From assembly GCA_001899315.1 (NCBI GenBank), contig MOYA01000004.1:233159-297158 (forward strand): DNA of 64,000 nt, in the 5' to 3' direction. The stretch's first letter is position 1; every line of letters begins with the position of its first letter. The notes under the pieces are model-generated. The model did no database searches. It worked only from the letters and a program-made list of their open reading frames with translations, and was not told where the DNA came from. This DNA comes from Candidatus Obscuribacter phosphatis (lineage in GTDB: Bacteria; Cyanobacteriota; Vampirovibrionia; Obscuribacterales; Obscuribacteraceae). Of the stretch, positions 11,019-59,149 are shown piece by piece. The translations under genes and the position numbers were made by a program.

Positions 11019-11080
11019 AGGGTATCTTGCGCCTCACTGATGCGGTTGGAAAATAGAATCAAATATGATACCAGATTGAA

Positions 11081-12751: not shown

Positions 12752-12765
12752 TAGGCGGTTCTCAG

Positions 12766-12816: not shown

Positions 12817-13033
12817 AGTGTCTTGCCTGATCGAGACTTCAATCTGCCCTGGGTGTCCTGCTATGTCTAGAGAGTCCTTTATCTATCTCTAATTGCTGAC
12901 TACTTTCTGCCGGGTTTTTCTTCTCTCCTCTTCTTTCGCTAACCGCCTACTGTTTACGCTGCCATCGACGCCAAATTTTAGGCGCCGGTGCATATGCGTT
13001 TTCGGTAAGTGCTCTGCTAGAATCTCGTGAACT

Positions 13034-13828
13034 ATGAAACTGATTGTTGATATCGGCAATACCAATACTAAGTATTGCCTCTGGTCTGAAGACGGTGGCG
13101 CCCGAGCCGTGGGCAAGGTCTCCACTTCGCTTCAATCTTTCCAGTTGGTCGAAGCCGAACTGAAGTCTATTTCTCTTGATGACAAGCCGCTTGCCTGGCA
13201 GTTTAAAGATGCCGAGGTGGTAGTGGTGTCTGTGGTGCCCGACTGCGGCAAAGCTTTTGTCGCAGCTGCCAAAGAGCATGGCGCCTTGGTTTATCTCATT
13301 GAAGCCACCACTCAGCCGGTGCTCAAGGACATGCCCAAAGAGATGGGTGCCGACCGTGTTGCCGAAGCTATCGGTGCTTGGTCAGCCTATCGCAAAGAGG
13401 GGCGACCGATGATCATCATTGGTTTCGGTACGGCTTCCACTTTGTTCACCATCTCGGCTGATGCTGCTGTCGGTGGTGGCTTTATCGGACCGGGGGTGAA
13501 GATGCTGCTCACCGCCTTGGCCCGCGACTGTGCCCTTTTGCCCGAAGTGCGCCTGCCCGAGAGTGGCGATGTTTCAAATCTGGGTCTGGGGCATACCACT
13601 GAAACGCAGATGCGAGCCGGTGTCACCTTTATGTTCAAAGGCATGGTGCAGGAATGGCTGTCTCAGGCTCGTCTCGAGCTTAAAGGTGAGCCAGTGATTG
13701 TCGCCACCGGTGGTTATTCGGCTCTGGTTGCTAGGCTTTTGCCGGGTGTTTTCGATGCAGTCGACACCACCCTGGCGCTGAAGGGGGCTGCCTTTATCGC
13801 CGGCTCTATCGATAAAGCCAAGGTTTGA
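13034..13828 (+). CDS. coaX: Type III pantothenate kinase (CoaX-like)
   Basis: 264 aa. First step of coenzyme A synthesis: phosphorylation of pantothenate by ATP. ASKHA-fold motifs are present: phosphate-1 loop VDIGNTNTKY (residues 5-14), MGADRVAEA (104-112), GFGTASTLF (130-138), GGGFIGPG, and the adenosine-side ATGGYSALV. At residue 130 there is Gly where many CoaX proteins have a catalytic Asp before the F/x-GTA motif, so activity is likely but not certain. A TAGAAT hexamer ends about 10 nt before the ATG, which would leave a very short leader. It is followed by a strong terminator. Confidence 0.85.
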   Translation: MKLIVDIGNTNTKYCLWSEDGGARAVGKVSTSLQSFQLVEAELKSISLDDKPLAWQFKDAEVVVVSVVPDCGKAFVAAAKEHGALVYLIEATTQPVLKDMPKEMGADRVAEAIGAWSAYRKEGRPMIIIGFGTASTLFTISADAAVGGGFIGPGVKMLLTALARDCALLPEVRLPESGDVSNLGLGHTTETQMRAGVTFMFKGMVQEWLSQARLELKGEPVIVATGGYSALVARLLPGVFDAVDTTLALKGAAFIAGSIDKAKV

Positions 13829-42712: not shown

Positions 42713-43717
42713 TTAGGAGTTGCCGGAGAAAAGCTTGATCAGCTTGTCGCGGGCAGAGAGTCCCTCTTCGGTGGAGAACTCTTCCCACCGAATGCTCGCT
42801 TCCTTGAAGAAAGCGAAGAGCGCTTTGCGGCGCTCCCTGAAGTTGAGGGCGTACTGCTCGCGCACGCTGTTCTTGCTCTGGAACGGCCACCACTTGGGCG
42901 GCAGCCAGATGGCCTTGCTCGTGCCCTTGCGGATGTCCTGAAGCATGTAGATGCCCCAGGTGTTCGGCAGTTCACGCTCACGCAGGTCCTGCACGTACAT
43001 GCAGACGGTGTCGTGGATGCCGGCGGTATAGGCGAGTTCCTCCTTCTCGTCATCGCTCAGGTCGATGAAGTCGGAAATGATGAAGACCACCGCCCGCGAC
43101 TGGTTGCGAACGTAGCGCAGGGACTGGATCAGTCCGCTCGGCACGTCGCCCTCGCCGCTGTCGAGCACGGTCGGCTCGGGGGAATCTTCGGGGTAGAGAT
43201 GGCGCAGCCCCGGCTCGATGATGGCCGAGAGACAGGGCAGCTTCACCGTGGCGGCGAAGTTGGCGCGGAAGCTCATCGCCTGGATCTGCTTCTCGTCATA
43301 GACGAGATAGCCGACCTTGTCGTTGGTCTTCTTGGCCGAGTTGAGAATCGAAGCCGCCAGCTCGGCCGCCACCATGCGTTTGCTGGTGCGGCGCGTACCG
43401 AAGTCCATGGTCAACTTGGAGTCGACCAGGATGTAGAACTTGACCTCGCGGGGTTCCTGGGTCTGGCGAACGAGCACCTGCTTGTCGCCTGAGCGAGCCG
43501 AAGCTCCCCAGTCGATTTTGCGAGGATCGTCGCCGAACTGATAGGGCCGCAGCGAGTGGAAATCGAAGCCGTTGAAACCGCGGTTGCGGCTGGGCCTTTC
43601 GCCGGTCCCGCCGAAGATCTGGCTGGTACGCCAGCGGACGGGAATGGGGCTGTTGATGGCCCGCTCTTCGACGGCTCCGATCAGTTCCAAAATAGCGTTA
43701 TCTTTGCGTTCAGACAT
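42713..43717 (-). CDS. DUF58-family protein (von Willebrand-like)
   Basis: 334 aa. The family core 'SLRPYQFGDDPRKIDW' and 'ASARSGDKQVLVRQ' is present, followed by the vWA-like strand 'VKFYILVDSKLTMDFG', where the first MIDAS-type Asp is kept but the DxSxS pattern is DSKLT. Cytoplasmic; no transmembrane segment. DUF58 proteins always sit with MoxR ATPases and are thought to be their substrates or adaptors. Encoded 112 nt after the MoxR gene, with a hairpin in between. Confidence 0.92.
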   Translation of the reverse strand: MSERKDNAILELIGAVEERAINSPIPVRWRTSQIFGGTGERPSRNRGFNGFDFHSLRPYQFGDDPRKIDWGASARSGDKQVLVRQTQEPREVKFYILVDSKLTMDFGTRRTSKRMVAAELAASILNSAKKTNDKVGYLVYDEKQIQAMSFRANFAATVKLPCLSAIIEPGLRHLYPEDSPEPTVLDSGEGDVPSGLIQSLRYVRNQSRAVVFIISDFIDLSDDEKEELAYTAGIHDTVCMYVQDLRERELPNTWGIYMLQDIRKGTSKAIWLPPKWWPFQSKNSVREQYALNFRERRKALFAFFKEASIRWEEFSTEEGLSARDKLIKLFSGNS

Positions 43718-43781
43718 ATTGCACCTTTCTGGTTATCGAAGCAGGATCAAAGACAACCTGGCGCCTAGCGATGGGCAAGAG

Positions 43782-43805
43782 GGGCAGTTGCTTGCGCAAC
43801 TGCCC
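43782..43805 (-). terminator. Hairpin between MoxR and DUF58 genes
   Basis: Perfect 10-bp stem GGGCAGTTGC/GCAACTGCCC with a TTGC loop and a pyrimidine-rich but T-poor tail; likely an attenuator that sets the MoxR:DUF58 ratio. Confidence 0.55.
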
Positions 43806-43829
43806 TTTGACCTGCTCATGTCATGTCGC

Positions 43830-44840
43830 TCAGGCGCCGACGACCTCGATGCTGTTGTGGATGGCGGTGATGAAGTCGTCGACTTCGAACTTGGGCGCCA
43901 TCGGGTTCTTGGCGATGCGGGCACGCATGATGTCGCGCGAGACGAACTTGACGTCGTCCGGCTCCACCTTGCTGCGACCGTTCAGGAACGCCACCGCGGA
44001 GGCGGCGTAGGCGATGGCCAGCTGCGCACGAGGCGAGCAGCCCAGGCGCACCTTCTTCTCGAAGCCGTTGCCGTCGCGGTCACGGACCTTCTTGAAGAGC
44101 TCGTCGGAAGGACGAGTGGCGCGCACCAGCCGGTTGATGTAGGCCAGGATGTCGTTCGGCAGCTGGTCGACGATCTCGGCCACCTTGGCGCGGGCTTCGA
44201 GGATGTCGTCCAGGCTGACGACCTGGTTGACCATCGTGGTCGGGTCCTGGCGCAGCGAAGTGGCCATGCGCAGGATGGAGATCTCGTCTTCCGGCGAGAC
44301 GTAGGGCAGGCTCACCTCGGCGCCGAAGCGGTCGATCATGGCTTCCGGCAGCTCATAGGTGCCTTCCTGCTCGATCGGGTTGCGCGTGGCGATGACGATG
44401 AAGACCTTCTCCAGCTTGTAGTCGACACCGCGGATGGTGACCTTGCGCTCCTGCATGGCCTGCAGCATGGCGGCGTTGGTCTTGGGACCGGTACGGTTCA
44501 CTTCGTCGGCGAGGAAGACGTTGACGCCGACGATGGGGCCGAGCTCGGTCTCCCACTTGCGGGTCTCCTGGTTGAAGACCGGAATGCCGGTGATGTCGGA
44601 CGGCTGCGTGTCGGGCAGCATCTGGATGCGGCCGGCCTTGCCGCCGATGATGGTGGCGCCCACGGTGTTGGCCAGGGTCGTCTTGGCGAGACCCGGCAGC
44701 GAGGTGAGCAGGACGTGGTCGTTGGTCAGAAGCGAGCGGATGACGAGGGCAACCACGCTCGGGTAGCCCTTCACAACCTTGTTGACCTCGGCTTCCTGAG
44801 CCGCGAACTTCGGATGCGTGATCTGATGCATCTTATTCAT
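43830..44840 (-). CDS. MoxR-family AAA+ ATPase
   Basis: 336 aa. Walker A SLPGLAKTTL (about residues 44-53), Walker B VFLADEVNR, sensor 1 'VIATRNPIEQEGTYELPEA' and the C-terminal lid with 'GCSPRAQLAIAYAASA'. MoxR ATPases act as chaperones that insert metal or remodel vWA-domain partners. Here the partners are the DUF58 protein and the two von Willebrand proteins of the same operon. GGAG lies about 8 nt upstream of the ATG. The 177-bp leader contains two hairpins (44907-44949 and 44978-44997). Confidence 0.96.
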   Translation of the reverse strand: MNKMHQITHPKFAAQEAEVNKVVKGYPSVVALVIRSLLTNDHVLLTSLPGLAKTTLANTVGATIIGGKAGRIQMLPDTQPSDITGIPVFNQETRKWETELGPIVGVNVFLADEVNRTGPKTNAAMLQAMQERKVTIRGVDYKLEKVFIVIATRNPIEQEGTYELPEAMIDRFGAEVSLPYVSPEDEISILRMATSLRQDPTTMVNQVVSLDDILEARAKVAEIVDQLPNDILAYINRLVRATRPSDELFKKVRDRDGNGFEKKVRLGCSPRAQLAIAYAASAVAFLNGRSKVEPDDVKFVSRDIMRARIAKNPMAPKFEVDDFITAIHNSIEVVGA

Positions 44841-45017
44841 GGTAGTTCTCCAGTTAGAGGTGAATGATTCACCTATCAGTTGAGTTCAGGTTGACGGAAA
44901 TCACTCGGGGCGGCATCTAGTGCGGGTTGACCGCCTGGACACCGCCCCGGAGTGGGCAACTGCAGGGATTGCAGAGTCTCTGCGTTTGCACGCAGAGTTG
45001 TACAGATACAGAGAAGC

Positions 45018-46133
45018 TCAGGCTTCGTTCTTGCGCCCAAGCAGTCCGATACCCAGCAGGATGCCCATGATGAAGAGGGCCAGTGCCAGCGGGTACTGGA
45101 ACATCGGGTTGTCGTGCTTCTCGGTTTTGGTGTTGCCGAGAGTGCGAGCCCATTCGATCTTGACGTTGGGAGGCGAGTCGGGATCGACGCGAATGTAGTC
45201 GCCGCCGGTCTGTCCCACGAGGGTTTGCAGAGCGGCTTCGTCGATGGCGGTTTGCACCACCTTGCCTTCCTGTTCGACATAGCCCGTGACCTGTCCATCC
45301 TTGCTGTACTTGGGGATGGGAACAGGCGAGGAAGAGCCCATGCCGACGACGATGATCTTGATTCCCTCTTGACGAATCTTGCCGAGCACTTCGGTGAGAT
45401 TCTTCTGCTCGCCGGTGAAACCACCATCGGTGAAGAGCAGGATCACCTTCTGGTGTTGCGACGGCGGCTCGGACTTGAACATGTCGAGAGCCGTCTTCAG
45501 CCCTTCGGCGTAGTCGGAACCACCGCCGGGGGCTTGGTTGATGCCCATGCGCTTGGTCATCATCCAGTAGAGCGCGCAGTAGTCGTCGGTCAGCTCAGCC
45601 TGGACAAAGCCCTGGCCGGTGTAGTTGACGATACCGATCTTGTTGCGCTCGAGGGTGGGCATGATCTGCTTGCGCACCACGTACTTGGCCATGTCCAGAC
45701 GAGAGCCGTAGGGTCCTACGACCTTGTCGGCCGGAATGGTTTCGATGATGGTCTTGCAGTCCCGGATGATTTCCTTGGGGGGCATGACGCCGCGATAGTC
45801 TTCCGCAGCCATGCTGGGCGAGACGTCAACGACGGCGATGAGCTTCATACTGCCTTCCCGCACGACCTGCGGGGAATCGGTCATGATGGGTCCGGCAGCG
45901 GCGATGACGACCATGGTGACGGCGGACAGCCAGAGCGCGCCTTTGGCGAACTCTCGGGCTGCACTGAAGGGACGCGTGAAGCGTTCGATCAGCTTCTCCT
46001 CGCCCCACTCTCGCCGCGCAGCCAGTCGCTGCTTGTACGAGAAGTAGAGCAAGGTCGCCGTGAGCGGAAGCACCACCAGAAGCGCATACAGATAGTCGGC
46101 ACGAAGCCAGGTCAAATCATTGAACACGTTCAT
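45018..46133 (-). CDS. von Willebrand A membrane protein (BatA/BatB-like)
   Basis: 371 aa. Three transmembrane segments (about 14-31, 64-81 and 343-363) flank a vWA domain with a complete MIDAS start DVSPSMAAED, the Thr-bearing 'IGIVNYTGQGF' strand and Asp in 'ILLFTDGGFTG'. This is the aerotolerance (Bat) membrane vWA topology. It would bind Mg2+ and a protein partner in the membrane-periplasm complex with MoxR and DUF58. 11 nt after the TPR protein. Confidence 0.92.
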   Translation of the reverse strand: MNVFNDLTWLRADYLYALLVVLPLTATLLYFSYKQRLAARREWGEEKLIERFTRPFSAAREFAKGALWLSAVTMVVIAAAGPIMTDSPQVVREGSMKLIAVVDVSPSMAAEDYRGVMPPKEIIRDCKTIIETIPADKVVGPYGSRLDMAKYVVRKQIMPTLERNKIGIVNYTGQGFVQAELTDDYCALYWMMTKRMGINQAPGGGSDYAEGLKTALDMFKSEPPSQHQKVILLFTDGGFTGEQKNLTEVLGKIRQEGIKIIVVGMGSSSPVPIPKYSKDGQVTGYVEQEGKVVQTAIDEAALQTLVGQTGGDYIRVDPDSPPNVKIEWARTLGNTKTEKHDNPMFQYPLALALFIMGILLGIGLLGRKNEA

Positions 46134-46144
46134 GTGGGCTCTCC

Positions 46145-46738
46145 TTAGATGGTGTCTCGATTTCCTTTGCCAGGCATCGAGCCGGGGTCATCGCCGGGCA
46201 CAGGCTTGCCGTCTTGCGGCGGACCGTTGCCCTTGCCTTTGCCCTTGCCCTGCTTCTGAGCCTGCTGCGGGTCGTTCTTGAAGAGCAGCTCCAGGTCGTA
46301 CTTGACGACCATGGCTGCTTCGCGGAAGACCTGGTATTCCTTTTCGGTCAGGTCACGGCCCAGGTAGAGGTTGCCGGAGTTGAGTTCCAGCGATTCCTTG
46401 AAAGCCTGGACGGCCGGCGGCGCCTGATTGAGGCGCAGGAGCGACTTGGCCTTGTGGAAGGACGCCAGGGCAGCAAGCTCCTTATCGGGCTTGGGATAGA
46501 TGAAGCGCTCCGCCCAGTTGAGGTCCTGGCGCCCTTTGTAGGTGGACAGGCTGGTGTCGAAGTACTTGACCGCCACCTGATGATCGCCGGAGCGATAGGC
46601 GGCGATGCCCTGGTTGTACTGGGCGATCTGTGCGTCGCGCCAGGAGTACAGGTACAACCCGTACGAGAAGATCAGCGCACCGATGATCACAGTAGCAATC
46701 ACCGCCATGCGCCGAGCAAAAGAGACTTTTGTTTCCAT
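46145..46738 (-). CDS. Membrane-anchored TPR protein (BatC-like position)
   Basis: 197 aa. N-terminal transmembrane helix (about 11-29); then helical repeats of TPR type ('QYNQGIAAYRSGDHQVAVKYF', 'SFHKAKSLLRLNQAPPAVQAFKESLEL'); the C-terminus is Gln/Lys/Gly/Pro-rich and low complexity. A TPR protein next to vWA proteins is the usual BatC arrangement; here it lies between the two vWA genes (35 nt after the first and 11 nt before the second), so it should be part of the complex. Confidence 0.8.
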   Translation of the reverse strand: METKVSFARRMAVIATVIIGALIFSYGLYLYSWRDAQIAQYNQGIAAYRSGDHQVAVKYFDTSLSTYKGRQDLNWAERFIYPKPDKELAALASFHKAKSLLRLNQAPPAVQAFKESLELNSGNLYLGRDLTEKEYQVFREAAMVVKYDLELLFKNDPQQAQKQGKGKGKGNGPPQDGKPVPGDDPGSMPGKGNRDTI

Positions 46739-46773
46739 GTTAGTTCTCCGTTTACTTGGAATAAAGATGGTGA

Positions 46774-47790
46774 CTACACGTCCTCTCTCACGAGAGCTGC
46801 GGTCACGGTGAAGGCGAGCGCCATGATGGCGGCGGCGATGAGGAACAAGTGGAAGATATCGCGGAAGGTCGTGGAGGTTTCCACTTCCACCTGCGACTTT
46901 TCCAAGGCGTTGATCTCATCGAAACCGGCACGCAGAGCTGCTGCATCGCCGACCGGGATGACCTTGCCGCCCGATTCGAGGGACAGCTTCTTGAGGTCTT
47001 GCACGGAGGACGAATCTTTCACCCAGCCGTCAGAGACACCAAGCACGTAGAGCTTGATATTGCCCTGCTTGAGCTGGTCGAGCAGCTGCTGCATGCGCTC
47101 GGGCTTGATGCTGGCTTCGCCGTCGGAGACCATGACGATCACCTTCGACTTGGCCTGGCCGAGTTCCTTGAAGTGGTCGATGGAAGCCTGGATGGGCCCC
47201 ATCTTGACGAAACCGGCATCGTCGGGTCCGTCGAAGTTGGTACCGCCGCCTGTGTACTTGCCGAGGCGCGAGTTGCGCTTGAGCAAGAGCTGCAGGTCGG
47301 TGGTGAGCGGCCAGCTGAAGTAGGCTTCGTCGTCGAAGAGGATGAGACCGATGCGGTCGCCCTCACGAGTCGGAATGAACTTGTCGATGGCAGCTTTTGC
47401 AACTGTCAGCCGGGTGATCTTGACGGGCTTGCCGTCTTCACCGAGCTGGGTGGTGTTGGGGTCGCCGACCAGAGCCTTCTGGTCGGGGTCGGCGATGTCC
47501 GAGTCCATCGAGCCGGAGATGTCGACAGCGATCATGAAATCGCGGGTCTGCATCGTCTGGGTCGTCTTCGATTCGGGCACCACCGGCCGGGCGATAGCCA
47601 GGCAGAGAAGCACGAGGAAGGCGCTCAGACAGATGATCGGCAGTCGGCTGAGGATGAACATGGAGCGCAGGTTTTTCTGCGTCGCCACCTGGGTGTGCCC
47701 GTAGCTTTTCCGGCGCCGCGAGGCGAGGTAGACCAGGGCGAGCACAACAGGAACGAGCCCCAAAAGATAGAGATTCATGAACTGGATCAT
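46774..47790 (-). CDS. von Willebrand A membrane protein (BatA/BatB-like)
   Basis: 338 aa from ATG 47790, chosen because AAGGAG lies 6 nt upstream. Membrane segments at about 7-24, 46-68 and 313-333; vWA domain between with MIDAS DISGSMDSD, 'DRIGLILFDDEAYFSWPL' and 'VIVMVSDGEAS'. Paralogue of the 45018-46133 protein with the same topology. First gene of the Bat/MoxR operon and therefore downstream of the operon promoter, which must lie within the long 47791-49600 region. Confidence 0.92.
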   Translation of the reverse strand: MIQFMNLYLLGLVPVVLALVYLASRRRKSYGHTQVATQKNLRSMFILSRLPIICLSAFLVLLCLAIARPVVPESKTTQTMQTRDFMIAVDISGSMDSDIADPDQKALVGDPNTTQLGEDGKPVKITRLTVAKAAIDKFIPTREGDRIGLILFDDEAYFSWPLTTDLQLLLKRNSRLGKYTGGGTNFDGPDDAGFVKMGPIQASIDHFKELGQAKSKVIVMVSDGEASIKPERMQQLLDQLKQGNIKLYVLGVSDGWVKDSSSVQDLKKLSLESGGKVIPVGDAAALRAGFDEINALEKSQVEVETSTTFRDIFHLFLIAAAIMALAFTVTAALVREDV

Positions 47791-48539
47791 GTTCAGCTCC
47801 TTTCTACAGGGATGTTGCATTTGAAAGAAATCGCGCACACTCGCTGAGCTGAAGCGTCAAACGCCAGCCTCAAGTTTTGAGTGTGCTTAGTCGGTAGGTT
47901 TGTCTGCCCAGACTCGTACTAATAGACCGGCTAACAACGCGAAGTTGGCAACTATGCGCGGTCTCCGTCAAATGCTCGACCATCCCATTGGTCCCCGGAA
48001 GCTTCGCTCTCCGTTCCCTCTCCTTGACTGGTCGGCTACCTTGCCATCGAAGGCTTCTGGTCGCATACCGGTTCTTGGGGTGGGGTGGGTTTTCTGGGTT
48101 CTGGTTCTTGTGGTTTGGTTGGTGGAACAGACAATGCTCTTAAATTAGCTAAAGAGCTCATACTAAAGAAACTATAAAAGGCTTAATTATAGATTCCGCA
48201 TGCGTGTGCGGAACCTTTAGGCAGAGAGGAAAAGTCGCGCTTGCGCGTGTTAGTTCAACCAAAACTAAAAAGTAAAAGTTTTGTTGAAACCAAGGTCTGG
48301 CCAAACAGAACGCCTGCGCGCGGTATTTAGTCAAGTGTCTCTTCTAGATATAAAAATGTGTCATTGTTAAGTAAATATGAGCGTGCGTTTAACTGCTGGA
48401 CGGTTTGCCGGGGGGTCTTGATGGCTAGCGCAGCTAGCTTTTGACTGCTAGGTTAGTGCGGACTAATTTGGTAGAAGGACGTCAGGCAAACTTCAGAAAA
48501 GCCTCGCTAGCTGTTCCGAAAGCTTTACCTTCAATTGAT

Positions 48540-48896: not shown

Positions 48897-49290
48897 TAAA
48901 TTCTCTAGAGGCTCTCAAGGCGAGTGCTTATGCAGGCGCGGCGTCAGGCTTCTCTAGATACTTTGCTGCAAGTGATTATGTAGGCGTAGGTGTCAGGCTT
49001 CTCTAGGGACTCTACGGCAAGTGTTTATGGAGGCGTAGGCGTGAGGCTTCTCTAGGGACTCTACGGCAAGTGTTTATGTAGGCGTGGATGCCAGGCTTCT
49101 CTAGAGGCTCTAAAGGCAAGTGATTATGGAGGCGTAGGTGTGAGGCTTCTCTAGGGACTCTACGGCAAGTGTTTATGTAGGCGTGGATGCCAGGCTTCTC
49201 TAGAGGCTCTAAAGGCAAGTGATTATGGAGGCGTAGGTGTGAGGCTTCTCTAGATGTTCTAAAGGCAAGTGTTTATGGAGAGACTTCTCG
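48897..49290. repeat. 49/50-bp tandem repeat array
   Basis: About seven to eight copies of a unit with core AGGCTTCTCTAGAGGCTCTA then GGCAAGTGTTTATGTAGGCG. The anchor AGGCTTCTC begins at 48946, 48995, 49044, 49093, 49143, 49192 and 49242, giving spacings of 49, 49, 49, 50, 49 and 50. Two successive 99-bp double units (from about 49051 and 49150) are identical. First and last copies are degenerate. No spacers, so not CRISPR. Confidence 0.93.
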
Positions 49291-49664: not shown

Positions 49665-50213
49665 TTACTTCACGTCGAAGGTCGCCTTCCAGACCTTGCC
49701 GCCGGGAATCGGCTGCAGGGTCTGTTGACTGCCGCTCCAGCCCCAGCTCCAGGAACGCTGCACTTCGTGCAACTCCAGGGTGACTGTGCCGTTGGCGCGC
49801 ACCTCGTAGATGATGGTGCGGGTGCCGTACTGCGGGTTGTGCTGGTCGGGAGTGAAAGCGCCGCGGACCTTCTCGCGCAGACCGTAGGGCAACGACTTGG
49901 TCGCCCATTCCTTCCAGGCGTACTGGTCTTCCGGCAGGATGACGTGAATCTCCTCGCCGACGCGCATGTTCTTGAAGGTCCGGCCGTCGTCGACGTCACG
50001 GCAGGTGACGAAGGAGACGCCGGCTTGCGTGACCGCGAGTGGCGAAGATGCCCCGGCGGAAAGCGGCGTCTGGCACCATTCGCATTCGTCCTGCTTGGCG
50101 CTGCAAGCGTCGCACAGGCGATAGGCGAAGTGGGTGGTCAGAGAACCGCAGCTGGTGCACTTCCCCGGAACGTTCAGGGTGCTTTTGCCCTGGCAAGTCT
50201 GACAGAGTGCCAT
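49665..50213 (-). CDS. Zinc-ribbon protein with C-terminal beta domain
   Basis: 182 aa; GGAGG about 8 nt before ATG. The first 50 residues hold four CxxC knuckles (C4/C7, C19/C22, C34/C37, C44/C47), enough for two zinc ribbons, like DnaJ-type or rubredoxin-type modules. The C-terminal domain (about 65-182) is beta-rich ('VGEEIHVILPEDQYAWKEW', 'TRTIIYEVRANGTVTLELHEV.RSW', '...KVWKATFDVK') and resembles the chagasin/I42 immunoglobulin-like pattern, which is inhibitory to cysteine proteases; this match is by eye only. Last gene of the PrkA/SpoVR run. Confidence 0.8.
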   Translation of the reverse strand: MALCQTCQGKSTLNVPGKCTSCGSLTTHFAYRLCDACSAKQDECEWCQTPLSAGASSPLAVTQAGVSFVTCRDVDDGRTFKNMRVGEEIHVILPEDQYAWKEWATKSLPYGLREKVRGAFTPDQHNPQYGTRTIIYEVRANGTVTLELHEVQRSWSWGWSGSQQTLQPIPGGKVWKATFDVK

Positions 50214-50228
50214 ATTGTATGTCCTCCC

Positions 50229-50972
50229 TCAGAAGTTGCGGAACGAACCGCCCTGACGGCAGCCCGTGCAGGTGCAGACGAAGCTGGGGCGATGAGCCTT
50301 GGAGGGCTCGAAGCTCACCTCGTCATCGGGGTTGATCAGCTGCGGCGGCGGCACCATGTGGAGCAGACCGGCCGAAGCCAGGTACTCGTCATGGTCGGAG
50401 GGCAGGCGCATCTGGAAGATGGCCTCGTACTCCTGCGCCGGCGGCTTGAAGCCAGGACCGTCAGCCACCGCGAAGCGAGCCACGATGTGCACGATGCCCG
50501 CACCGGAAACCGGCTGCAGGGGAATCTGCACCGAGCTCTCTGCCGTGTCGGCGGCCACTTCCAGCGCCAGAGCCGCTTGCTCGCCTTCGCTTTCGCTGGG
50601 CGGCGCGGTCAGGGCGGCGATGGCTTCCGCGTCGGTGCGAGGCTTGATCGGCGCCTTCTCTCCCGGCTTGAGGAAGTAGAAGTTGGCGCCGTCGCCGTCG
50701 GTCTCGACGTAGTTGATGCCGGCAGGCAGCGAAACGCGGCTGCGCAGCTGCCCCTCCACGTGGATGAGCAGGTCGACTGCATGCCGGGACATGACGCGCA
50801 CGGCGTACTGGCCCGAGTGCATGCGGACGTTCAGATCAGGGCTGTTCTTGGTCTCGTAGTTGACGGGCAGAACCCAGTCGGCATCGGCACCGAAGACGGC
50901 ATTGGCTGCCGGCTTGGCCACGAGCGCGATGTTCATCGACCGTCCGAGAACCTCGTCAGTGAATGTTTTCAT
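50229..50972 (-). CDS. Unknown protein with C-terminal CxCxxC motif
   Basis: 247 aa; GGAG about 8 nt upstream. No signal peptide or membrane helix. The N-terminal 170 residues are beta-rich ('VRMHSGQYAVRVMSRHAVDLLIHVEGQLRSRVSLPAG', 'GIVHIVARFAVADG') and suggest a two-lobed sandwich. The last residues, FVCTCTGCRQGG, carry a CxCxxC cluster suited to zinc or iron-sulphur. No family recognised. It is 15 nt before the zinc-ribbon gene and 85 nt after SpoVR, so it belongs to the same group and may be an adaptor of the kinase system. Confidence 0.7.
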   Translation of the reverse strand: MKTFTDEVLGRSMNIALVAKPAANAVFGADADWVLPVNYETKNSPDLNVRMHSGQYAVRVMSRHAVDLLIHVEGQLRSRVSLPAGINYVETDGDGANFYFLKPGEKAPIKPRTDAEAIAALTAPPSESEGEQAALALEVAADTAESSVQIPLQPVSGAGIVHIVARFAVADGPGFKPPAQEYEAIFQMRLPSDHDEYLASAGLLHMVPPPQLINPDDEVSFEPSKAHRPSFVCTCTGCRQGGSFRNF

Positions 50973-50992
50973 AGATAGCTCCTTAGAGTTTC

Positions 50993-51036
50993 TGTTTACA
51001 CGAAAAGGCAGGCTCAGCGACGTTGCTGAGCCTGCC
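50993..51036 (-). terminator. Terminator after the SpoVR gene
   Basis: Perfect 12-bp stem GGCAGGCTCAGC/GCTGAGCCTGCC (51007-51018 with 51025-51036) followed on the minus strand by TTTTCGTG. Confidence 0.85.
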
Positions 51037-51057
51037 GAGCGAGGGTTCAGGTGGCTG

Positions 51058-52881
51058 TTAGAGCCAGCGTTCCTTCACCACGTCGCCGTCTTCCGTGAAG
51101 TACTCATACGGGCGCGGGGGTCCGATGGCACGGCCGCGCGGGTCGGTCGGGGGCTCCATCGTCAGCAGGCGCACCGGGTTGCCGCAGAGGCGACGGAAGT
51201 AACGCAGAGTCAGCCGCGCCTCCGACTGGAGAAGCGGACCGAAGTTCTCGTCGTACTCGTGCTTCAGGGTCCAGACGCCATCACCGAACTTGCCGGTGTC
51301 CTGGATGGAGATGTTGGGCACATTGTGGTAGGCGGTGCGCATGACCAGCATGCGACGCGCCTTGTGCTTGTTCTGGTCGAAGGCGGCCACGATCTGGATG
51401 ATCGTCGCCATCTGCTTCAGAGTCGCAGCCGGCACCGGGAAGTAGGGCGTGCCCATCTCCTCGTGGTAGAACTCGCTCGTCTCCTGCACCTGCGCCCAGG
51501 TCTGGATCACCTGCATGAGGTCCTCCAGCGACAGCGGCAGCGGGTTTTCGAAGACGTACTTGCGGTTCCAGCCGGAACGCTTGAGGGTGTTGTTGATCAG
51601 GACGATGACCCGACGCACCCACTTGAGCGTCTCGAGGTTGAGTTCCTCGAACAGCTCCTCCTGCATGAACTCGGTGACGAAGCGGTTGTCGTCGTACTCG
51701 CGCAGCACCTCGAACATCTTGTCGCGGTTGCGGCGAGGCACCTTTTCGGTACGCCACTTCTTGCCTTCGACGTACTCGCCGTCTTCGGCCTTGACCAGCT
51801 CCTTGAACCTGACCGTGTCCATGATGACGTTGCCGTCAGCATCCTTCTCGTCGAAGCAGTACTTGCGGTCGATGTAGGACCAGATGTTCAGGCCCATGGC
51901 GTAGGGGTCGAAGTAGTTCGCGACCGCCTCGCTGTAGTGCATGTGCCACGACTTGGCCAGGTCGAAAATGCGGTACTCGAAGGGCACCGACACTTCCGGC
52001 TGGAGCAGGAGGTCACGCTGCCAGAACGAGGCGAAGCCTTCGTTCATGAACTTGGTGCGTCCCTGCGGCTGGAAGTAGCGGGAGCGGTCACGCACGATGG
52101 AGACCAGCATGCGCGCCTTCTCGTGCATGTGCGGCGTGTTCTCGGGGTCCATCAGGAAGCCGAGCAGGTCGTGCGTCGGCTGGATGGGGTAGCGCTTCAG
52201 CGTCTGCTCGATGGCAGCCGCCTGGCGCTCCAGCTGTCCCTTCACCGAAGCCGAAACTTCGCCCTCGGTGATGATGCGACGCCGCAGGGTGGCGAGCTCG
52301 CCCTTGAGCTGCTCGCGCAGTTCCTTGTCGCTGAGCTGGTCCGGGATGGTGGGCAACCAGCCGGCATGGTTCTCCAGCGCGTGCAGAGCATCCATGTAGT
52401 ACTCGTACGTCTCCCAGCCCCAGTCGGGGTCCTGGGTGAGCGCATCGATCTTGTTGCGCGCCTGGGTGAGACGCGCAACGATCGACTCCGGCATGGTCTC
52501 GCCGAAGTGCCGGTTGGTGGTGAAGAAGACCACATGCCCGAACGTGGCGTGCGCCATGACGTGCAGCTGCATCGGCAGGGTGTTGGTCGTGGAGAGGTAC
52601 TGGATAGCCGGGTTGGTGTTGAGCACCATCTCATAGATGTGCCCACCATAGCCACCCCGGCGGTTCCGCTCCGCTTCCTTGCCCTTGGACCAGTGCACGT
52701 AGTCGTTCGGCATGCCGACATAGGGCAGCACCTGGCTGACCTGTTCGTCGGTTGTGAGCTTGTAGTCGATGGGGTAGTACTTCATGCCGATGCGTTCAGC
52801 AGCGGCTGCCATACGATTGTGCCACATGACCAGCAGCTCACAGAGCCGCTCATAGGTGAAATGCGGGTTGTAGTTGCTCAT
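51058..52881 (-). CDS. SpoVR/YcgB-family protein
   Basis: 607 aa; E. coli YcgB is about 510 aa. Family signatures include 'YPIDYKLTTDEQVSQVLPYVGMP', 'GGHIYEMVLNTNPAIQYL', 'MAHATFGHVVFFTTNRHF', and 'KFMNEGFASFWQRDLL' where NEGxAxFW is near-universal. The His/Glu-rich core suggests a metal site. SpoVR proteins are co-inherited with PrkA and DUF444 (yeaG-yeaH-ycgB); the role in non-sporulating bacteria is starvation and stress adaptation, mechanism unknown. It starts 11 nt after the DUF444 gene. Confidence 0.96.
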   Translation of the reverse strand: MSNYNPHFTYERLCELLVMWHNRMAAAAERIGMKYYPIDYKLTTDEQVSQVLPYVGMPNDYVHWSKGKEAERNRRGGYGGHIYEMVLNTNPAIQYLSTTNTLPMQLHVMAHATFGHVVFFTTNRHFGETMPESIVARLTQARNKIDALTQDPDWGWETYEYYMDALHALENHAGWLPTIPDQLSDKELREQLKGELATLRRRIITEGEVSASVKGQLERQAAAIEQTLKRYPIQPTHDLLGFLMDPENTPHMHEKARMLVSIVRDRSRYFQPQGRTKFMNEGFASFWQRDLLLQPEVSVPFEYRIFDLAKSWHMHYSEAVANYFDPYAMGLNIWSYIDRKYCFDEKDADGNVIMDTVRFKELVKAEDGEYVEGKKWRTEKVPRRNRDKMFEVLREYDDNRFVTEFMQEELFEELNLETLKWVRRVIVLINNTLKRSGWNRKYVFENPLPLSLEDLMQVIQTWAQVQETSEFYHEEMGTPYFPVPAATLKQMATIIQIVAAFDQNKHKARRMLVMRTAYHNVPNISIQDTGKFGDGVWTLKHEYDENFGPLLQSEARLTLRYFRRLCGNPVRLLTMEPPTDPRGRAIGPPRPYEYFTEDGDVVKERWL

Positions 52882-52892
52882 ATACAGACTCC

Positions 52893-54491
52893 TTAAACAG
52901 ATTGCTGCCGATCCTTGTCCAGGATCAGCTTGAATGCTTCGGGGACATCCGCAAGCGAATTGGCCTTCGCCATGCCCAGGTGAGCCTTGACGTCGGCCGG
53001 CAGACCCCGCAGAGCCTGACCACCGAGGCTGAAGCCACTGCGACCACCCCAGGACGTTCCCGTCTCCAGGTAGCCGACATAGTTGAAGGGCGCGCGAATG
53101 ATCCGGGTGAACCAGTCGCGAATCGCTTCTTCACCGTCGAAGAGGTCGCCGTCGGTGGCGTGGAACATGTAGCGGTTCCAGCTGGAAGCCGGGTAGGGAC
53201 CGGCGGAGTTGCCGGTGGTCTTCGAGCGGGCACCGAATTCGGCGATCTTGTAGGTCAGCTCCCAGGCGGGAACAGCCACGGTACCGCCGCCGGCACCAAT
53301 CTTGAAGAATTCCTCTTCGGTCTTCCAGAGGTATTCCTGCGCGTCGTGGCTGATGAGGGACAGGGCCACTTCCTTGTACTTCGTCTTGAGGAACAAGACG
53401 CAGATGAAGAAGTAGGCCTTGGCGATGATCATCGGATCACCGCTCATCGAACCGGAACGGTCCAGCACGAGAGCAACCCAGGCCTTGGAGTCCGGGTCGT
53501 CTTTCTCTTCGATGCGGTTGTAGCGCAGGTCGTTCTTGTGGAACGGCACTTCGGCCACGGTCGGGATGCCTTCGCCGCCACGCTCCTTGGTGAAGACGTA
53601 GGCAGCGACACGCATGCGCAGGTTGTCCTCCACCGTGTAGGGTGCGGTGACGGCGCCAGGCATGTCGACTTCGAGGTACTCGGAGATGGCCTTGAAAGCC
53701 GTCTCGCGGAACTCCGGCACATCCTCCGCTTCGATCGGGTCAGACGAAACCGCCTGCTCGACCTCGTTGAGGAAAGCTTCCACGTTTTCACGGGAGCTGC
53801 CGGTGCCGGTGAGCTTGTACGCCGGTTCGGGGAAGATGGGGTTGCCATCCTTGCCCGAGTGCATATAGGCCCAGAAGATGTAGGCTTCGAACACAGCCTG
53901 GCACTTTTCCTCGAAGTCCTCGACGAACTCCTCGGGGCGCACGTTCTTGGCTGCGGCCGCACGGCGCAGTCGGGCGACTGCGGTGGCGCGCTTGTTGATG
54001 CGCGAACGGGGACCGTGGTTGGTCAGACCGCGACGCTTGTGGGTCTTGACCATGGTCTGCGCGAACATCTTCTTGAGCATGTTCGGCAGCCCGATTGACT
54101 CGAAGAACATCTCGATGAACTCTTCGAAGTCCATCTCGACGTAATCGCCGGGGTCGCTGCCGGGCTTACCCTTGCCGGGACCGCCCTGACCCGAACCATC
54201 TCGGCCCGGGCGCCAGATCGGCTCCGCTTCGGGGTCAACCGGCACGTTGATTTTGCCGGGACGGGTGATGACCGGGTTGTCGCCGATGATGTCGCCAATC
54301 TTGCCCTTGATCTTGCCCTTCTGGCGCTCCTTGTAGCGCTGCCGGTCGCGTTCGGTCTTGTCGCCGCCGCGTCCGGGAGGGGTGATCGAAGGCTTGCCGA
54401 CAGCAAGCGCACGAACCAGGGAGTCATCGTCCGGAGCAACAATGCTGAAGCTGAAGGGCTTCTTCAGCTCCTTTGAAGGTTTCTTAGACAT
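52893..54491 (-). CDS. DUF444 / YeaH-YhbH protein with vWA-like domain
   Basis: 532 aa from the second ATG (54491), which places GGAGG at 8 nt; the first ATG at 54497 is too close. An N-terminal basic 'RDRQRYKERQKGKIKGKI' region typical of YhbH is followed by a Gly-rich linker, helical middle, and a vWA-like domain with 'VALVLDRSGSMSGDPMIIAKAYFF' (MIDAS DxSxS) and 'YMFHATDGDLFDGEEAIRDWF'. Longer than E. coli YeaH (427 aa). Acts with PrkA and SpoVR; may be the scaffold or substrate of the kinase. Encoded between PrkA and SpoVR. Confidence 0.95.
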   Translation of the reverse strand: MSKKPSKELKKPFSFSIVAPDDDSLVRALAVGKPSITPPGRGGDKTERDRQRYKERQKGKIKGKIGDIIGDNPVITRPGKINVPVDPEAEPIWRPGRDGSGQGGPGKGKPGSDPGDYVEMDFEEFIEMFFESIGLPNMLKKMFAQTMVKTHKRRGLTNHGPRSRINKRATAVARLRRAAAAKNVRPEEFVEDFEEKCQAVFEAYIFWAYMHSGKDGNPIFPEPAYKLTGTGSSRENVEAFLNEVEQAVSSDPIEAEDVPEFRETAFKAISEYLEVDMPGAVTAPYTVEDNLRMRVAAYVFTKERGGEGIPTVAEVPFHKNDLRYNRIEEKDDPDSKAWVALVLDRSGSMSGDPMIIAKAYFFICVLFLKTKYKEVALSLISHDAQEYLWKTEEEFFKIGAGGGTVAVPAWELTYKIAEFGARSKTTGNSAGPYPASSWNRYMFHATDGDLFDGEEAIRDWFTRIIRAPFNYVGYLETGTSWGGRSGFSLGGQALRGLPADVKAHLGMAKANSLADVPEAFKLILDKDRQQSV

Positions 54492-54577
54492 ACACATTGC
54501 CTCCTGGAGGTTAATCCGAAATAGACGTTTAAACTGCCGTCAAAAGCCTTTGCTGTTGCCGCCCTATACGAGGATGG

Positions 54578-54633
54578 CAAAGAAAGCCGGCGGCTTCCTG
54601 CAACCTTATTAGGGCTGCAGTCCACCGCCGGCT
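54578..54633 (-). terminator. Terminator between PrkA and DUF444 genes
   Basis: Stem AGCCGGCGG/CCGCCGGCT (54585-54593 with 54625-54633) with an inner CTGCA/TGCAG; on the minus strand followed by TTTCTTTGCC. The DUF444 gene then probably has its own or a read-through supply of mRNA. Confidence 0.85.
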
Positions 54634-54675
54634 CAGCGAGGCTCTAGACAACTGTTCTAGAACCCCAGGCTTGGC

Positions 54676-56847
54676 TTAGCGCTCGACCAGGAAGTCGGAG
54701 TTCTCCTCGGCCTCGCGCAGCAGCTGGTCGGCCGACCAGTCGGAGAAGCCGTACTTCTCGACCAGACGGGCCTTGGCGGCGTTGATCTTCGCCAGGTCCT
54801 CGTTCGAGCGGGCGCTCGTGGACGAGAACAGGCGGGCACCGGTGCGGACCTTCTTCAGCACGAACCGCTCGATGCACTTCTGCACGGCGGTGTGGCAGGT
54901 GTAGGGCACGCCCTTCACCTTGTTGCTGTCGCGGATCCACTGGTTGACGGCAGCCACGATCTCGGCGCGGAACTTCGGAGCCTCGGCCGAGGTCACGCCC
55001 CAGTCCGGATCCGACTCGATCTCGCGCATGAACTGCTCGTCACCGCCGGGCTGCGACTTGGAGTAGCCCGTGGCGCTCTTGACGCTCTGGTTGGTGGACC
55101 AGGCGACCACGTTGTCCAGGTACTTGTCCCAGGTGCGCTGGGCTTCGTCCTGGAAGCCTTCGACCATCGAGGCCAGCACGTACTGCGACAGGGTACGCTT
55201 GCGCACCTCGTCCAGCTCGTTGCGCAGCACGCCCAGGAGGAACTCCAGGCGCTTCTCGTCGGTCTGGGTGCCCTTGTACCACTCACGCAGAGCGTCGCGG
55301 ACCAGGGCGGAGGTGACGGTGTCGCCGCGGCCCATGACGTTCGCCGCCACGAGCTGCATCACCTTGTTGGTCTCACGGGGAGACTGACCAGCCAGGCCTT
55401 CACGCACGCCGGCGCGTTCGCGCAGGTCCTGCACCGAGACCTTGGTGCCCATGCCGCGCGCACGCTGCTCGCGACCGTCGTAGGCGTCGGCCTTGACGTT
55501 GAGCGGGACGCTCTGGTCGGGCAGGATGCGGGTCAGCACTTCCAGACGCGCCAGGTAGTCGAACACGTCGGGGTCGACGTGCACGCGACCGGCGAAGTCC
55601 GAGCCGCCCCAGAACTTCTCGATGACGCGGCGAGCCTGCGACATCTCGAGGGGGTACTTGAACCAGACGCGCAGGAAGCGGTCGCCGTACGGCTCGTTCT
55701 CGCGCACCTTCATGAACTTGTCGTACTCACCCTCGTTGGAGTGGAGGATGATCAGACCGTCGAAGAAGACCGAACCCGAGAGCGGGCTCGGCAGCTTGAC
55801 GCGGCGGCCCTGCAGGGCTTCCAGCAGGACGCGCTGGGCTTCCGGCGGGTTCTTCAGACCCTCGGTGAGGATCACGAGACCGCGGTTGCCCTTGTTGAAG
55901 GCGCCGTTCAGGTTGATCGAGCGCGGGTCGCCCTCGGTGAACTGGCCCAGCTGACCGATGTTCTCGGTGCCGATCCACTCGCCGATGTCGAAGTTGAGCG
56001 GCTGCACTTCGGCCACGTCGACGATACCGTTCGAGCCGGAGTAGTCGTCGGTGAAGCGCATGTACTCGATCGGGTAATCGGCGATCTTGATCGCCTTGCC
56101 CTTGAAGCCGTACTGGCCGAGCACCGCCGCCTGCACCATCGGCTCGGGGTTACCGACCGCGGAGCGGGTGGAGCGGGGCAGGCCGAGGCCGGCGACGATG
56201 GCGGTGACCAGGCTGTCGGACTCGAGACGAGCCAGACCCTCGATCGACGCGCTGACACCGGCACCGTTCACGACTGCCTTGAGGCTGGCGTTGTCGAAGT
56301 CGAGCAGGCTGTCCAGACCGCAGTCGGTCAGGATCTGCGCCTTGAGCTCGATGACGCGGTCGGTGAAGGCCTCGTCGAGGAGACCCTCGGCGTCGGCCTG
56401 CTGCTCGGCGGCGAACTGAACCATGTAGAACAGGCTCAGCGGGTTGTCGTGGATGCGGCTGTGCTTCAGGTACGGGATGGGAGCCGACTGACGGTACAGC
56501 TGCTTGATGCGGGTGACGAAGTCCGACTTGCCGGCGCCCGGAGGCCCGATGAGGACCAGGGCCTGCTTGTCGGTCTCACCGCCCATGGTGGCGGGGGTGA
56601 GGTAGGAGTTGACGATGCTGTAGACCCACTGGTCGACGCCGTAGAAGTTCTTGAACGCGTTGTACGAGACCAGCGAGTCGTTGCCGTAGATGCGGCGGGT
56701 ACGGGTCGTGGCGGCGACGTTCTCGCCGGCCTGTTCGACCAGGCGGAGCAGGCGGCTCTTCGAAGACTCGGTCTCCTGGACCAGTTTGCCCTTCGCAGCC
56801 AGCCAGGTCTTGAAAGAGAACTTGTTGGAGGTGGTGTTGGTTTCCAT
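54676..56847 (-). CDS. prkA: PrkA-type serine/threonine protein kinase
   Basis: 723 aa from ATG 56847 with GAGG 9 nt upstream (a GTG at 56862 is the only earlier start). AAA domain with Walker A GPPGAGKS (101-108) and 'NRGLVILTEGLKN' near the Walker B position. The C-terminal PrkA domain (about 590-723) is seen in 'VRDALREWYKGTQTDEKRLEFLLGVLRNELDEVRKRTL' and 'RFVLKKVRTGARLFSS'. In Bacillus and E. coli (YeaG) this kinase is autophosphorylating and acts in sporulation or starvation. Longer than the usual 640 aa. Encoded 22 nt after a second, divergent PrkA paralogue. Confidence 0.93.
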   Translation of the reverse strand: METNTTSNKFSFKTWLAAKGKLVQETESSKSRLLRLVEQAGENVAATTRTRRIYGNDSLVSYNAFKNFYGVDQWVYSIVNSYLTPATMGGETDKQALVLIGPPGAGKSDFVTRIKQLYRQSAPIPYLKHSRIHDNPLSLFYMVQFAAEQQADAEGLLDEAFTDRVIELKAQILTDCGLDSLLDFDNASLKAVVNGAGVSASIEGLARLESDSLVTAIVAGLGLPRSTRSAVGNPEPMVQAAVLGQYGFKGKAIKIADYPIEYMRFTDDYSGSNGIVDVAEVQPLNFDIGEWIGTENIGQLGQFTEGDPRSINLNGAFNKGNRGLVILTEGLKNPPEAQRVLLEALQGRRVKLPSPLSGSVFFDGLIILHSNEGEYDKFMKVRENEPYGDRFLRVWFKYPLEMSQARRVIEKFWGGSDFAGRVHVDPDVFDYLARLEVLTRILPDQSVPLNVKADAYDGREQRARGMGTKVSVQDLRERAGVREGLAGQSPRETNKVMQLVAANVMGRGDTVTSALVRDALREWYKGTQTDEKRLEFLLGVLRNELDEVRKRTLSQYVLASMVEGFQDEAQRTWDKYLDNVVAWSTNQSVKSATGYSKSQPGGDEQFMREIESDPDWGVTSAEAPKFRAEIVAAVNQWIRDSNKVKGVPYTCHTAVQKCIERFVLKKVRTGARLFSSTSARSNEDLAKINAAKARLVEKYGFSDWSADQLLREAEENSDFLVER

Positions 56848-56869
56848 GATAGATTTCCTCACTTAGAGA

Positions 56870-59149
56870 TTAGCTCTGCTTCCAGAGCTGATAGTCGTTG
56901 AAGTACGTGAGCGCTACTTTCGCGCAGTGCTCGCAATAACCGAGTTCCTTGAAGCGCTGCAGGGCATCGCGACGGATGACCTTGTCTTCTTCGGAAAGCT
57001 CGATTTCACTCTTCAGAACACGCTCAAGCTTCGTGGCGGCATCGTCGTTGAGTTTCTTCGCGATGCCTTCAGCCAGCTTGGGCAGGGTACGCCAGGTGAC
57101 TTCCCGTGCCTTGACCGCATCCTCGTCGCTCTCCTCGTCCTCCGCCGATTTGCTGGCGTTGATCGTGAGCTGAAGGATGTGACCTTCGACGGACTTGCGG
57201 AAGTCCTCCTTGTCACCGAGGCTCGTGAGCCCCATGTGCTTTTCCAGGTCGTCCAGGATGCCGTCGAAGTTGACCTTCACACGACGCTCGACGAGCTTGC
57301 CGCCCTGTTCCACCATCTCGACGGTCTCCTTGAGACCCTTCGCCGAAGCGATGGCGTGGATGCGGTAGCGCTCGAAGAGAGCACTGGCGCGACGCTCGAA
57401 GTCAGGCGCGATGACTTCGAGGAACTGCCGTTTCAGAACACGGCGGTATTCCTCCTCGATGAGGCCCGGCTTGTCGTCCATTCCCTTCGGCGGGCGAAGG
57501 TACTCGGTGCAATTCTCCAGGACCTGCTTCTGGGAGTCGGTCAGACCGGGCTTCTTCTTCATCTGCGCGATCTTGGCGCGCAGGAAGCCCAGCATCTCGA
57601 GGGTGCTGATGCAGGGCGCGTTGTCCGGACCGGCATCCTTCATGACGAGGGAAACCGCTTCCGAGATGATGTTCAGCATTTCCGGCATGTTGAGGCCGGC
57701 CATACCTTCATCTTCTCCCGCTTCCGCCCAGAACTCACCGACCGACCAGTAGGCGATCGCCTTCTTGACCGGCTGGGTCGAGGTGCTGGAGCGGCCGCCG
57801 TAGTTGGCGGTGGTGCCGAACGGGTTCGACGACTGGGCGTTCTGGGCGCCCGCGTTGATGTTGCGCTTCTCGACAGCGAGCTGTTCGCCGTCGTACATAC
57901 GCGCCCGCTTGACGATGTCGACCTCGGCGTGATCCTTCTTCATGCGGCTGATGACCGCCAGAAGTGCCGTGATCTTCAGCGTCATGGGATCGAAGTGGGG
58001 CTGCTGCCGCATCTCCGCGATGGCGGTGCGGTAAGCCTGCTCTTCCTCCGAAACGGACGTGATATAAGGAACATTGAAGATGGCGAGCCGGCGCAGGAAC
58101 TTGTCCGGGTCAGCCTGTTCCTTCATGAAGCGGGCGTAGGAGCCGTCGTTGGTCTGCCCGATCATCACCGCATCGAGCGGCAGGAAACCCTTGCGGGCGC
58201 TGCGGTCGTTGCAGGAGTTATCGTCACCGCAACCGGCAGGGATCTGACGGTCGTTGGTGGCTTCGAGCAGGATGTCCAGCTCCTCGACGCTGGCAGCGAC
58301 GCCGGCATCCTTGGTGGACGCGGCGGAGCCGAACAGCTCGGGCATGTCGACCACACCGCGGCTGCCCATCTCGAGGGACTGAGCCAGGGTGCAGTTGCGT
58401 CCCCAGGTGGCGATGCCGAAGCTACGGCTGGAGAGCCGCATGGCAGTCACCTTCACCTCGGCGAGGTTGGGGCTTTCCTTGTCCTGCATGACCTTCTCCC
58501 AGCAATGCTGGCAGGGCTGACCGGAGATGGCCAGCAGGTCTTGCAGGGTGGGCTTGCGCGCAGGCTTGGCGTCGGGGTTGCCCTTGGCGGCCCGCACTGC
58601 TTGCTTGTACTCTGCGTCGCGATCCGCCGCCGTCATCTTCAGCTGACGCTCGATCTGAGCGATGCGTTCGACAGGCAGAAGATTGAGCAGATTGATCGGA
58701 TTTTCGTGGACAGGACATCCGTCCACGGCGTAGACGACTTCACCTTCGAGGGCTTCCTTGAAGGCGTTGGCGAGAAAGCTCTTGCCGGAACCGGGTCCAC
58801 CCTTGAGGAGGATCGCCAGGCGCTGCTGGTAGCCGTTGGCGGCAGCGGCGCGCAGATGGTTGAGGAGTCGAGCGACGACGCGCTGCGAACCTCGCACATC
58901 CTTGAAGGCGTTCCAGGTCGGGATGCCCATTTTCTTGAGCATCTTCAGGTAGGGACGCAGTTCCTGCGGAGAGATGTCGATATCGACCTCGCCCTTGGAT
59001 TCGATGGCTCGAACCAGGGTCGCGGCGGCGGAGTCGGCCACCTCCGGGGTTTCCGTCAGTCTGACGAGAAAGTCCCGGTAGGAGATGGTCTCCACCACGT
59101 TTGACCGCAGGCCGAGCAACTCATGAAGCTCTTGGCCAGTAGATGACAT
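56870..59149 (-). CDS. Second, diverged PrkA-type kinase with extra cysteine-bearing segments
   Basis: 759 aa from ATG 59149 (AAGGAGG 8 nt upstream). Walker A GGPGSGKS at residues 117-124. 'CPVHENPINLLNLLP' after it corresponds to the PrkA 'C.MHEEPL.L.P' region. Two extra cysteine-bearing parts are visible: 'QPCQHCWEK' (C213, C216) and 'GCGDDNSCND' (C307, C313), and the C-terminus has another CEHC. Acidic and Lys-rich helices fill the region 560-700. It is probably the founding gene of the operon. The cysteines may bind zinc and give redox or metal control that the first PrkA lacks. Confidence 0.9.
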   Translation of the reverse strand: MSSTGQELHELLGLRSNVVETISYRDFLVRLTETPEVADSAAATLVRAIESKGEVDIDISPQELRPYLKMLKKMGIPTWNAFKDVRGSQRVVARLLNHLRAAAANGYQQRLAILLKGGPGSGKSFLANAFKEALEGEVVYAVDGCPVHENPINLLNLLPVERIAQIERQLKMTAADRDAEYKQAVRAAKGNPDAKPARKPTLQDLLAISGQPCQHCWEKVMQDKESPNLAEVKVTAMRLSSRSFGIATWGRNCTLAQSLEMGSRGVVDMPELFGSAASTKDAGVAASVEELDILLEATNDRQIPAGCGDDNSCNDRSARKGFLPLDAVMIGQTNDGSYARFMKEQADPDKFLRRLAIFNVPYITSVSEEEQAYRTAIAEMRQQPHFDPMTLKITALLAVISRMKKDHAEVDIVKRARMYDGEQLAVEKRNINAGAQNAQSSNPFGTTANYGGRSSTSTQPVKKAIAYWSVGEFWAEAGEDEGMAGLNMPEMLNIISEAVSLVMKDAGPDNAPCISTLEMLGFLRAKIAQMKKKPGLTDSQKQVLENCTEYLRPPKGMDDKPGLIEEEYRRVLKRQFLEVIAPDFERRASALFERYRIHAIASAKGLKETVEMVEQGGKLVERRVKVNFDGILDDLEKHMGLTSLGDKEDFRKSVEGHILQLTINASKSAEDEESDEDAVKAREVTWRTLPKLAEGIAKKLNDDAATKLERVLKSEIELSEEDKVIRRDALQRFKELGYCEHCAKVALTYFNDYQLWKQS

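Follow-up and report, generated by a model that had tools for sequence, protein, structure and literature searches.

An expanded PrkA-DUF444-SpoVR operon with paired PrkA paralogues and two cysteine-bearing candidate accessory proteins in Obscuribacterales

The 5.5 Mb genome of Candidatus Obscuribacter phosphatis, a non-photosynthetic member of the Cyanobacteriota, contains an operon in which the PrkA, DUF444 and SpoVR families are joined by a second PrkA and by two proteins carrying clustered cysteines. The operon lies within the 64,000-nucleotide stretch analysed here (contig MOYA01000004.1, positions 233,159 to 297,158; hereafter, the window), where six open reading frames (ORFs) follow one another on the minus strand from 59149 to 49665. 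These encode two AAA+ PrkA paralogues, PrkA2 (759 amino acids; 56870..59149) and PrkA1 (728 amino acids; 54676..56862), a DUF444/YeaH protein (534 amino acids; 52893..54497), SpoVR (607 amino acids; 51058..52881) and two proteins referred to as P247 (50229..50972) and P182 (49665..50213). The first-pass annotation of this DNA had described the locus as a six-gene extension of the yeaG-yeaH-ycgB set, and all six ORFs were indeed found on this strand and at these positions. Gaps of only about 7-15 bp make near-abutting pairs of PrkA2 and PrkA1, DUF444 and SpoVR, and P247 and P182, with longer gaps between PrkA1 and DUF444 (178 bp) and between SpoVR and P247 (85 bp). There is no separate canonical yeaG-yeaH-ycgB set in this genome, its single SpoVR being the one inside the operon, and defence-system models run against the operon returned a trivial AAA match alone.

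Comparative analysis showed that the six genes constitute one co-inherited unit. PrkA2 is present in 24 of the 53 Obscuribacterales genomes searched; among those that are >90% complete, the set was found in 11 of 22, indicating a patchy distribution with approximately half of the order lacking it. The gene order PrkA2-PrkA1-DUF444-SpoVR-P247-P182 is identical in all complete copies, wherever the contigs allow it to be followed, and is retained down to <30% identity between copies. Contig ends interrupt several loci; for two of them (in G326 and G296), second contigs carrying SpoVR–P247–P182 supplied the rest. Counted over assessable copies only, P247 is present in 22/22 and P182 in 20/21 operons; the cysteine-bearing proteins thus accompany the paired PrkA in the order, and the finding that the first-pass annotation had named as refuting, a paralogous PrkA lacking both proteins in most relatives, did not materialize. 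Within the order, SpoVR is confined to genomes that also have PrkA2. The GC content of the operon (0.60-0.63) exceeds that of its surroundings (approximately 0.50-0.54), which might point to a recently acquired horizontal island. We do not favour this explanation, given that most relatives display the same rise in GC at the same prfB-adjoining site; because prfB is the common neighbour in most loci examined, in many of them with an oxidoreductase gene beside it, inheritance appears to have been mainly vertical despite the raised GC. Beyond the order, PrkA2 was encountered in the present genome only in a 292-genome sample of the phylum, and P182 in 1 of the 386 phylum genomes sampled, again the present one. 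In another phylum, that of G440, 299 genomes gave a single weak match to P182, limited to its zinc-ribbon part, and neither P182 nor P247 matched any plasmid. The contig scan relied on one narrow peptide pattern, and distant relatives elsewhere may therefore have been missed.

Both PrkA proteins match the respective Pfam models above the cut-offs, PrkA1 (AAA_PrkA, 3.1e-56; PrkA C-terminal domain, 1.9e-31) scoring better than PrkA2 (4.5e-32 and 6.6e-16), and neither matches the MoxR family model AAA_3 at E<=1. The PrkA2 start codon, an ATG at 59149, is preceded by an AAGGAGG ribosome-binding site, which upholds the previously assigned length of 759 amino acids; the residue numbers used below count from a longer, 777-residue ORF. 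The Walker A residue K141, N352 and R372 are invariant in PrkA2 (24/24), PrkA1 (23/23) and other PrkA proteins (9/9). The cysteines of PrkA2, located in the motifs GCPVHENP, PCQHC and GYCEHC, are less uniform. C163 and the C231/C234 pair are invariant (25/25), whereas the CEHC pair near the C-terminus is kept in part (C757 in 17/25, C760 in 16/25). Of the cysteine pairs noted in the first-pass annotation, the one in the second insertion was not borne out by conservation (C325 in 6/16, C331 in 2/22). In 9xip, the sole PrkA of known structure available for alignment and named a serine protein kinase, the equivalents of C163, C231/C234 and C757/C760 lie in CPMHEEPL, GDLCPVCR and GYCEHC, and all three motifs recur in the PrkA of Thermomicrobium and in that of a phage contig. 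These PrkA2 cysteines are therefore old features of the family. The first two motifs are gone from most PrkA1 proteins, and PrkA2, though more diverged overall, is by this alignment the copy that has retained the ancestral cysteines. In a phylogenetic tree built with a quick method, midpoint-rooted, containing some long branches and without haloarchaeal sequences, PrkA1 and PrkA2 each came out as a single group (support 99-100), distinct from the nine other PrkA proteins included; the duplication would therefore be older than the family's spread across the order. A candidate third PrkA in the genome (G000:C1:152127) was rejected: its AAA match spans 55 residues within an ORF of approximately 800 codons beside a clpX-like ORF, and we tentatively read this ORF as a Lon protease.

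PrkA genes were also observed on viral contigs. A 15344-bp IMG/VR contig (L087) encodes DUF444 and SpoVR together with a PrkA in which all three cysteine motifs are present (2191-3219, 3197-4546 and 6464-8323); its terminase-like and structural-looking ORFs lead us to presume that it is phage-like. On a 340 kb viral contig (L088, 9866-13000), the HTNE motif of a PrkA ORF of 1045 amino acids is interrupted by a long, intein-like insert, which starts with Ser and ends with VVCHN before TNETE.

DUF444 (Pfam, 1.8e-50) and SpoVR (6.4e-67) are readily recognizable members of their families. The metal ion-dependent adhesion site (MIDAS) of the DUF444 VWA domain, comprising D346, S348, S350, T406 and D449, is intact in the window and invariant in 28/28 proteins, and H111, H116 and E281 of SpoVR are nearly invariant. 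Upstream of the VWA domain, DUF444 contains an insert of approximately 140-150 amino acids (about residues 165-316 in the window; 53550..54005, minus strand) that is homologous to the C-terminal domain of PrkA and nearest to that of PrkA1. Against a hidden Markov model (HMM) of this domain, the inserts scored 25-45 bits compared with at most 6.7 bits for shuffled inserts, hhalign gave probabilities of 98.7-99.1%, and DUF444 proteins without the insert yielded no score; Pfam alone detects the segment in the window DUF444 only, below its cut-off. The insert was recognized in ten operons, which all fall into a single PrkA2 clade of twelve members, two of them truncated. A sister locus of this clade (L045) has a DUF444 insert of comparable length that went unrecognized by the model, and no PrkA-like insert was detected in the tested DUF444 proteins of known PrkA-YhbH/YeaH-SpoVR sets. 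This pattern suggests that the segment was gained once in DUF444, and its homology suggests that it may serve as a shared interface between the DUF444 adaptor and the PrkA motor. A sequence search of the PDB produced no match for SpoVR and no meaningful match for DUF444.

Outside the six-gene unit, SpoVR also occurs in the genomes of four uncultured phages (595-642 kb). A second divergent cluster (L062 of G320, 5177-13195) encodes ClpP (PF00574, 215 bits), a 488-residue protein without a Pfam match, PrkA, DUF444 and a SpoVR whose tail ends in NCCGCG.

P182 combines an N-terminal head resembling a double zinc ribbon with a C-terminal domain predicted to adopt the chagasin fold. It has the four CxxC pairs noted in the first-pass annotation, and its cysteines are conserved: at seven of the eight positions the residue is retained by 17-18 of 18 members, and at one position proline takes its place in five divergent members. 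Pfam zinc-ribbon models match the head in few members each, weakly and below cut-offs, and zinc in P182 is suggested by the paired CxxC motifs. In an AlphaFold model based on 11 sequences, with a predicted local distance difference test score (pLDDT) of 81, the C-terminal domain resembled chagasin and related cysteine-peptidase inhibitors, including EhICP, in Foldseek comparisons (E 3e-7 to 5e-6, probability 1.00), and weak hits to Pfam I42, below the gathering cut-off, were obtained for 12/17 members (lowest E 1.1e-5). P247, a new family without a Pfam match, was modelled with moderate confidence (68) as beta-rich in its N-terminal part, followed by a disordered cysteine tail (pLDDT <50 from residue 237). 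The CxCxxC tail likewise holds up across relatives, two of its cysteines being present in 13/13 members and the third in 10/11 closer ones; in divergent members, P247 is represented by a homologue of 340-395 amino acids. Judging from these motifs, both proteins probably bind zinc. Two operons contain an extra small cysteine-rich protein after P182 (L054, 18618-18986; L102, 1204-1500); neither protein matches Pfam, and their tails read GGCGGGCGCK and CRCGGCGRC.

The three gene pairs of the operon are set apart from one another by hairpins. The PrkA1–DUF444 gap (54498..54675, minus strand; z -6.9) is more structured than shuffled sequences in all 17 loci (z -2.5 to -9), and relatives have hairpins at the equivalent place; the possibility that this region is a dispersed repeat was discarded, as it has no second copy in the genome. 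The SpoVR–P247 gap (z -4.3 in the window) is more structured than shuffles in 12/15 loci (z -2 to -10) and contains a terminator- or attenuator-like hairpin of 12 bp followed by TTTT (51007..51036, minus strand). Stems in the two gaps measure 9-29 bp and differ in sequence between loci. Partial termination or RNA processing at these structures would probably result in three expression levels.

Taken together, these observations make it fairly likely that the locus encodes a lineage-specific, expanded PrkA-DUF444-SpoVR machine of the AAA+/VWA kind, equipped with two zinc-stabilized accessory proteins and, by analogy, functioning in stress. In such a machine, PrkA1 and PrkA2 would form a mixed AAA+ assembly on which DUF444 could dock in the manner of the VWA partners of MoxR-type ATPases, with the PrkA-like segment as the interface; SpoVR would be an effector or client, and P247 and P182 would act as zinc-stabilized adaptors, the chagasin-fold domain serving in binding rather than in cysteine-peptidase inhibition. 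The hairpins would probably adjust the amounts of the three gene pairs, and the machine as a whole may act in starvation or stress survival, as suggested by E. coli YeaG/YeaH and Bacillus PrkA. Several observations sit less comfortably with this interpretation. The operon of G323 is without P182, whereas a whole P182 occurs without PrkA in G298; the zinc-ribbon-like head of P182 recurs, joined to different sequences, in many proteins of the Obscuribacterales (including those of L103, L104 and L105) and is thus a lineage-expanded module; some divergent members have a degenerate P247 tail, and a fold search with P247 gave no reliable match. Because P182 can stand alone and its head is reused, it is not strictly tied to the PrkA machine.

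The exceptional P182 gene in G298, as well as the hairpin that separates SpoVR from P247 in most loci whose gap is of sufficient length, would also be compatible with P247 and P182 being downstream passengers, which a terminator cuts off from a core of four genes. However, an equally structured gap lies within that core, separating PrkA1 from DUF444, and therefore the hairpin is not a mark of the operon end; moreover, the order has been kept to <30% identity, with P247 in every assessable copy and P182 in all but one, which makes the passenger scenario improbable. Only marginally more credence can be given to the proposal, made in the first-pass annotation, of a redox- or zinc-sensing branch, whereby stress would cause the cysteines of P182, P247 and PrkA2 to give up zinc or to form disulfides, and the AAA+ machine would be switched in this way. 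The strong conservation of the P182 and P247 cysteines is in its favour, and a flexible P247 tail would suit a labile metal site, but the PrkA2 cysteines, shared with 9xip and the Thermomicrobium and phage proteins, are ancestral rather than peculiar to a new thiol or zinc branch, the 757/760 pair varies, as does one P182 position, and zinc-ribbon-like pairs are usually structural. Structural zinc binding accounts for the cysteine motifs no less well than redox sensing does. Finally, the fold and the weak I42 matches could signify that P182 is a true I42 inhibitor controlling a PrkA-linked papain-like peptidase. Inhibition of an enzyme of its own host is hard to reconcile with the absence of the inhibitory loop NPTTG (NPTTGY) from all 17 aligned members and of any Peptidase_C1 match from the genome; we regard this explanation as very improbable and the chagasin-fold domain as more likely a binding module.

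Extending the favoured reading of an expanded AAA+/VWA machine, we tentatively envisage a system of six dedicated parts, restricted within the genomes searched to Obscuribacterales. In it, duplicated PrkA motors, working with a VWA adaptor that acquired a piece of the C-terminal domain of the motor, would be coupled to clients through a zinc-ribbon/chagasin-fold hybrid and a cysteine-tailed adaptor. PrkA, DUF444 and SpoVR are widespread and linked to starvation, stress and sporulation, yet the task of the machine is poorly understood; among relatives of the complex, structures seem thus far to have been solved for PrkA only (9xip-9xir). Co-conserved partner families, along with a domain common to the VWA protein and the AAA+ motor, hint at which parts may be in contact.

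Two further features lie just downstream of the operon or near it. A tandem array of a 49-bp unit (approximately 7.7 copies) occupies window positions 48901-49280, and a Bat-like AAA+/VWA cluster of DUF58, MoxR AAA_3, VWA, TPR and VWA genes is found at 42719-47838; in G323, homologues of several genes of the latter cluster are also located near prfB.

The PrkA, DUF444 and SpoVR families co-occur widely (PMC3102087), and the window operon shares all three with the known PrkA-YhbH/YeaH-SpoVR sets (E. coli yeaGH and ycgB; Bacillus prkA, yhbH and spoVR; Thermomicrobium TRD_RS13110-13100), Thermomicrobium, Sphingobium and Pontibacillus having them in the same order. Unlike the window operon, these sets have one PrkA, no P247 or P182 listed alongside and, in the DUF444 proteins tested, no detectable PrkA-like insert. 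E. coli YeaG and YeaH act jointly in nitrogen starvation (PMC4664914), and a stress or starvation phenotype is known only for E. coli YeaG and Bacillus PrkA (PMC13001217, PMC4664914). The label of a stress kinase in the first-pass annotation needs to be qualified: the family is AAA+, and neither protease nor kinase activity could be detected in carefully purified PrkA of B. anthracis, which gave rise to oligomeric species upon ATP addition (PMC13001217), though E. coli YeaG is reported, through a citation in PMC4664914, to be an active kinase in vitro. Nor is a second PrkA without precedent: every haloarchaeon examined carries, as a signature of the group, a pair of neighbouring PrkA genes together with DUF444 and SpoVR (PMC3102087). 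Compared by description rather than by sequence, the haloarchaeal four-gene cluster is alike in its adjacent paralogue pair but differs in that PMC3102087 does not mention cysteine-bearing accessory proteins; since all haloarchaea have it, the PrkA pair as such is not tied to such proteins. Chagasin and other I42 inhibitors resemble the C-terminal domain of P182 in predicted fold, whereas P182 has no NPTTG loop, carries a zinc-ribbon-like head and resides in a genome without a C1 peptidase. MoxR-type systems, too, consist of an AAA+ ATPase adjoining a VWA protein with an intact MIDAS, but their MoxR AAA_3 and VWA_2/CoxE families are separate from PrkA and DUF444. AAA+/VWA pairs of this kind are the model for the docking mechanism, PrkA itself not being a MoxR protein. 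Whereas the adjacent PrkA pair with DUF444 and SpoVR is already known from haloarchaea, the P182 hybrid, the P247 family, the DUF444 segment homologous to the PrkA C-terminal domain and the hairpin-split gene pairs appear to be new.

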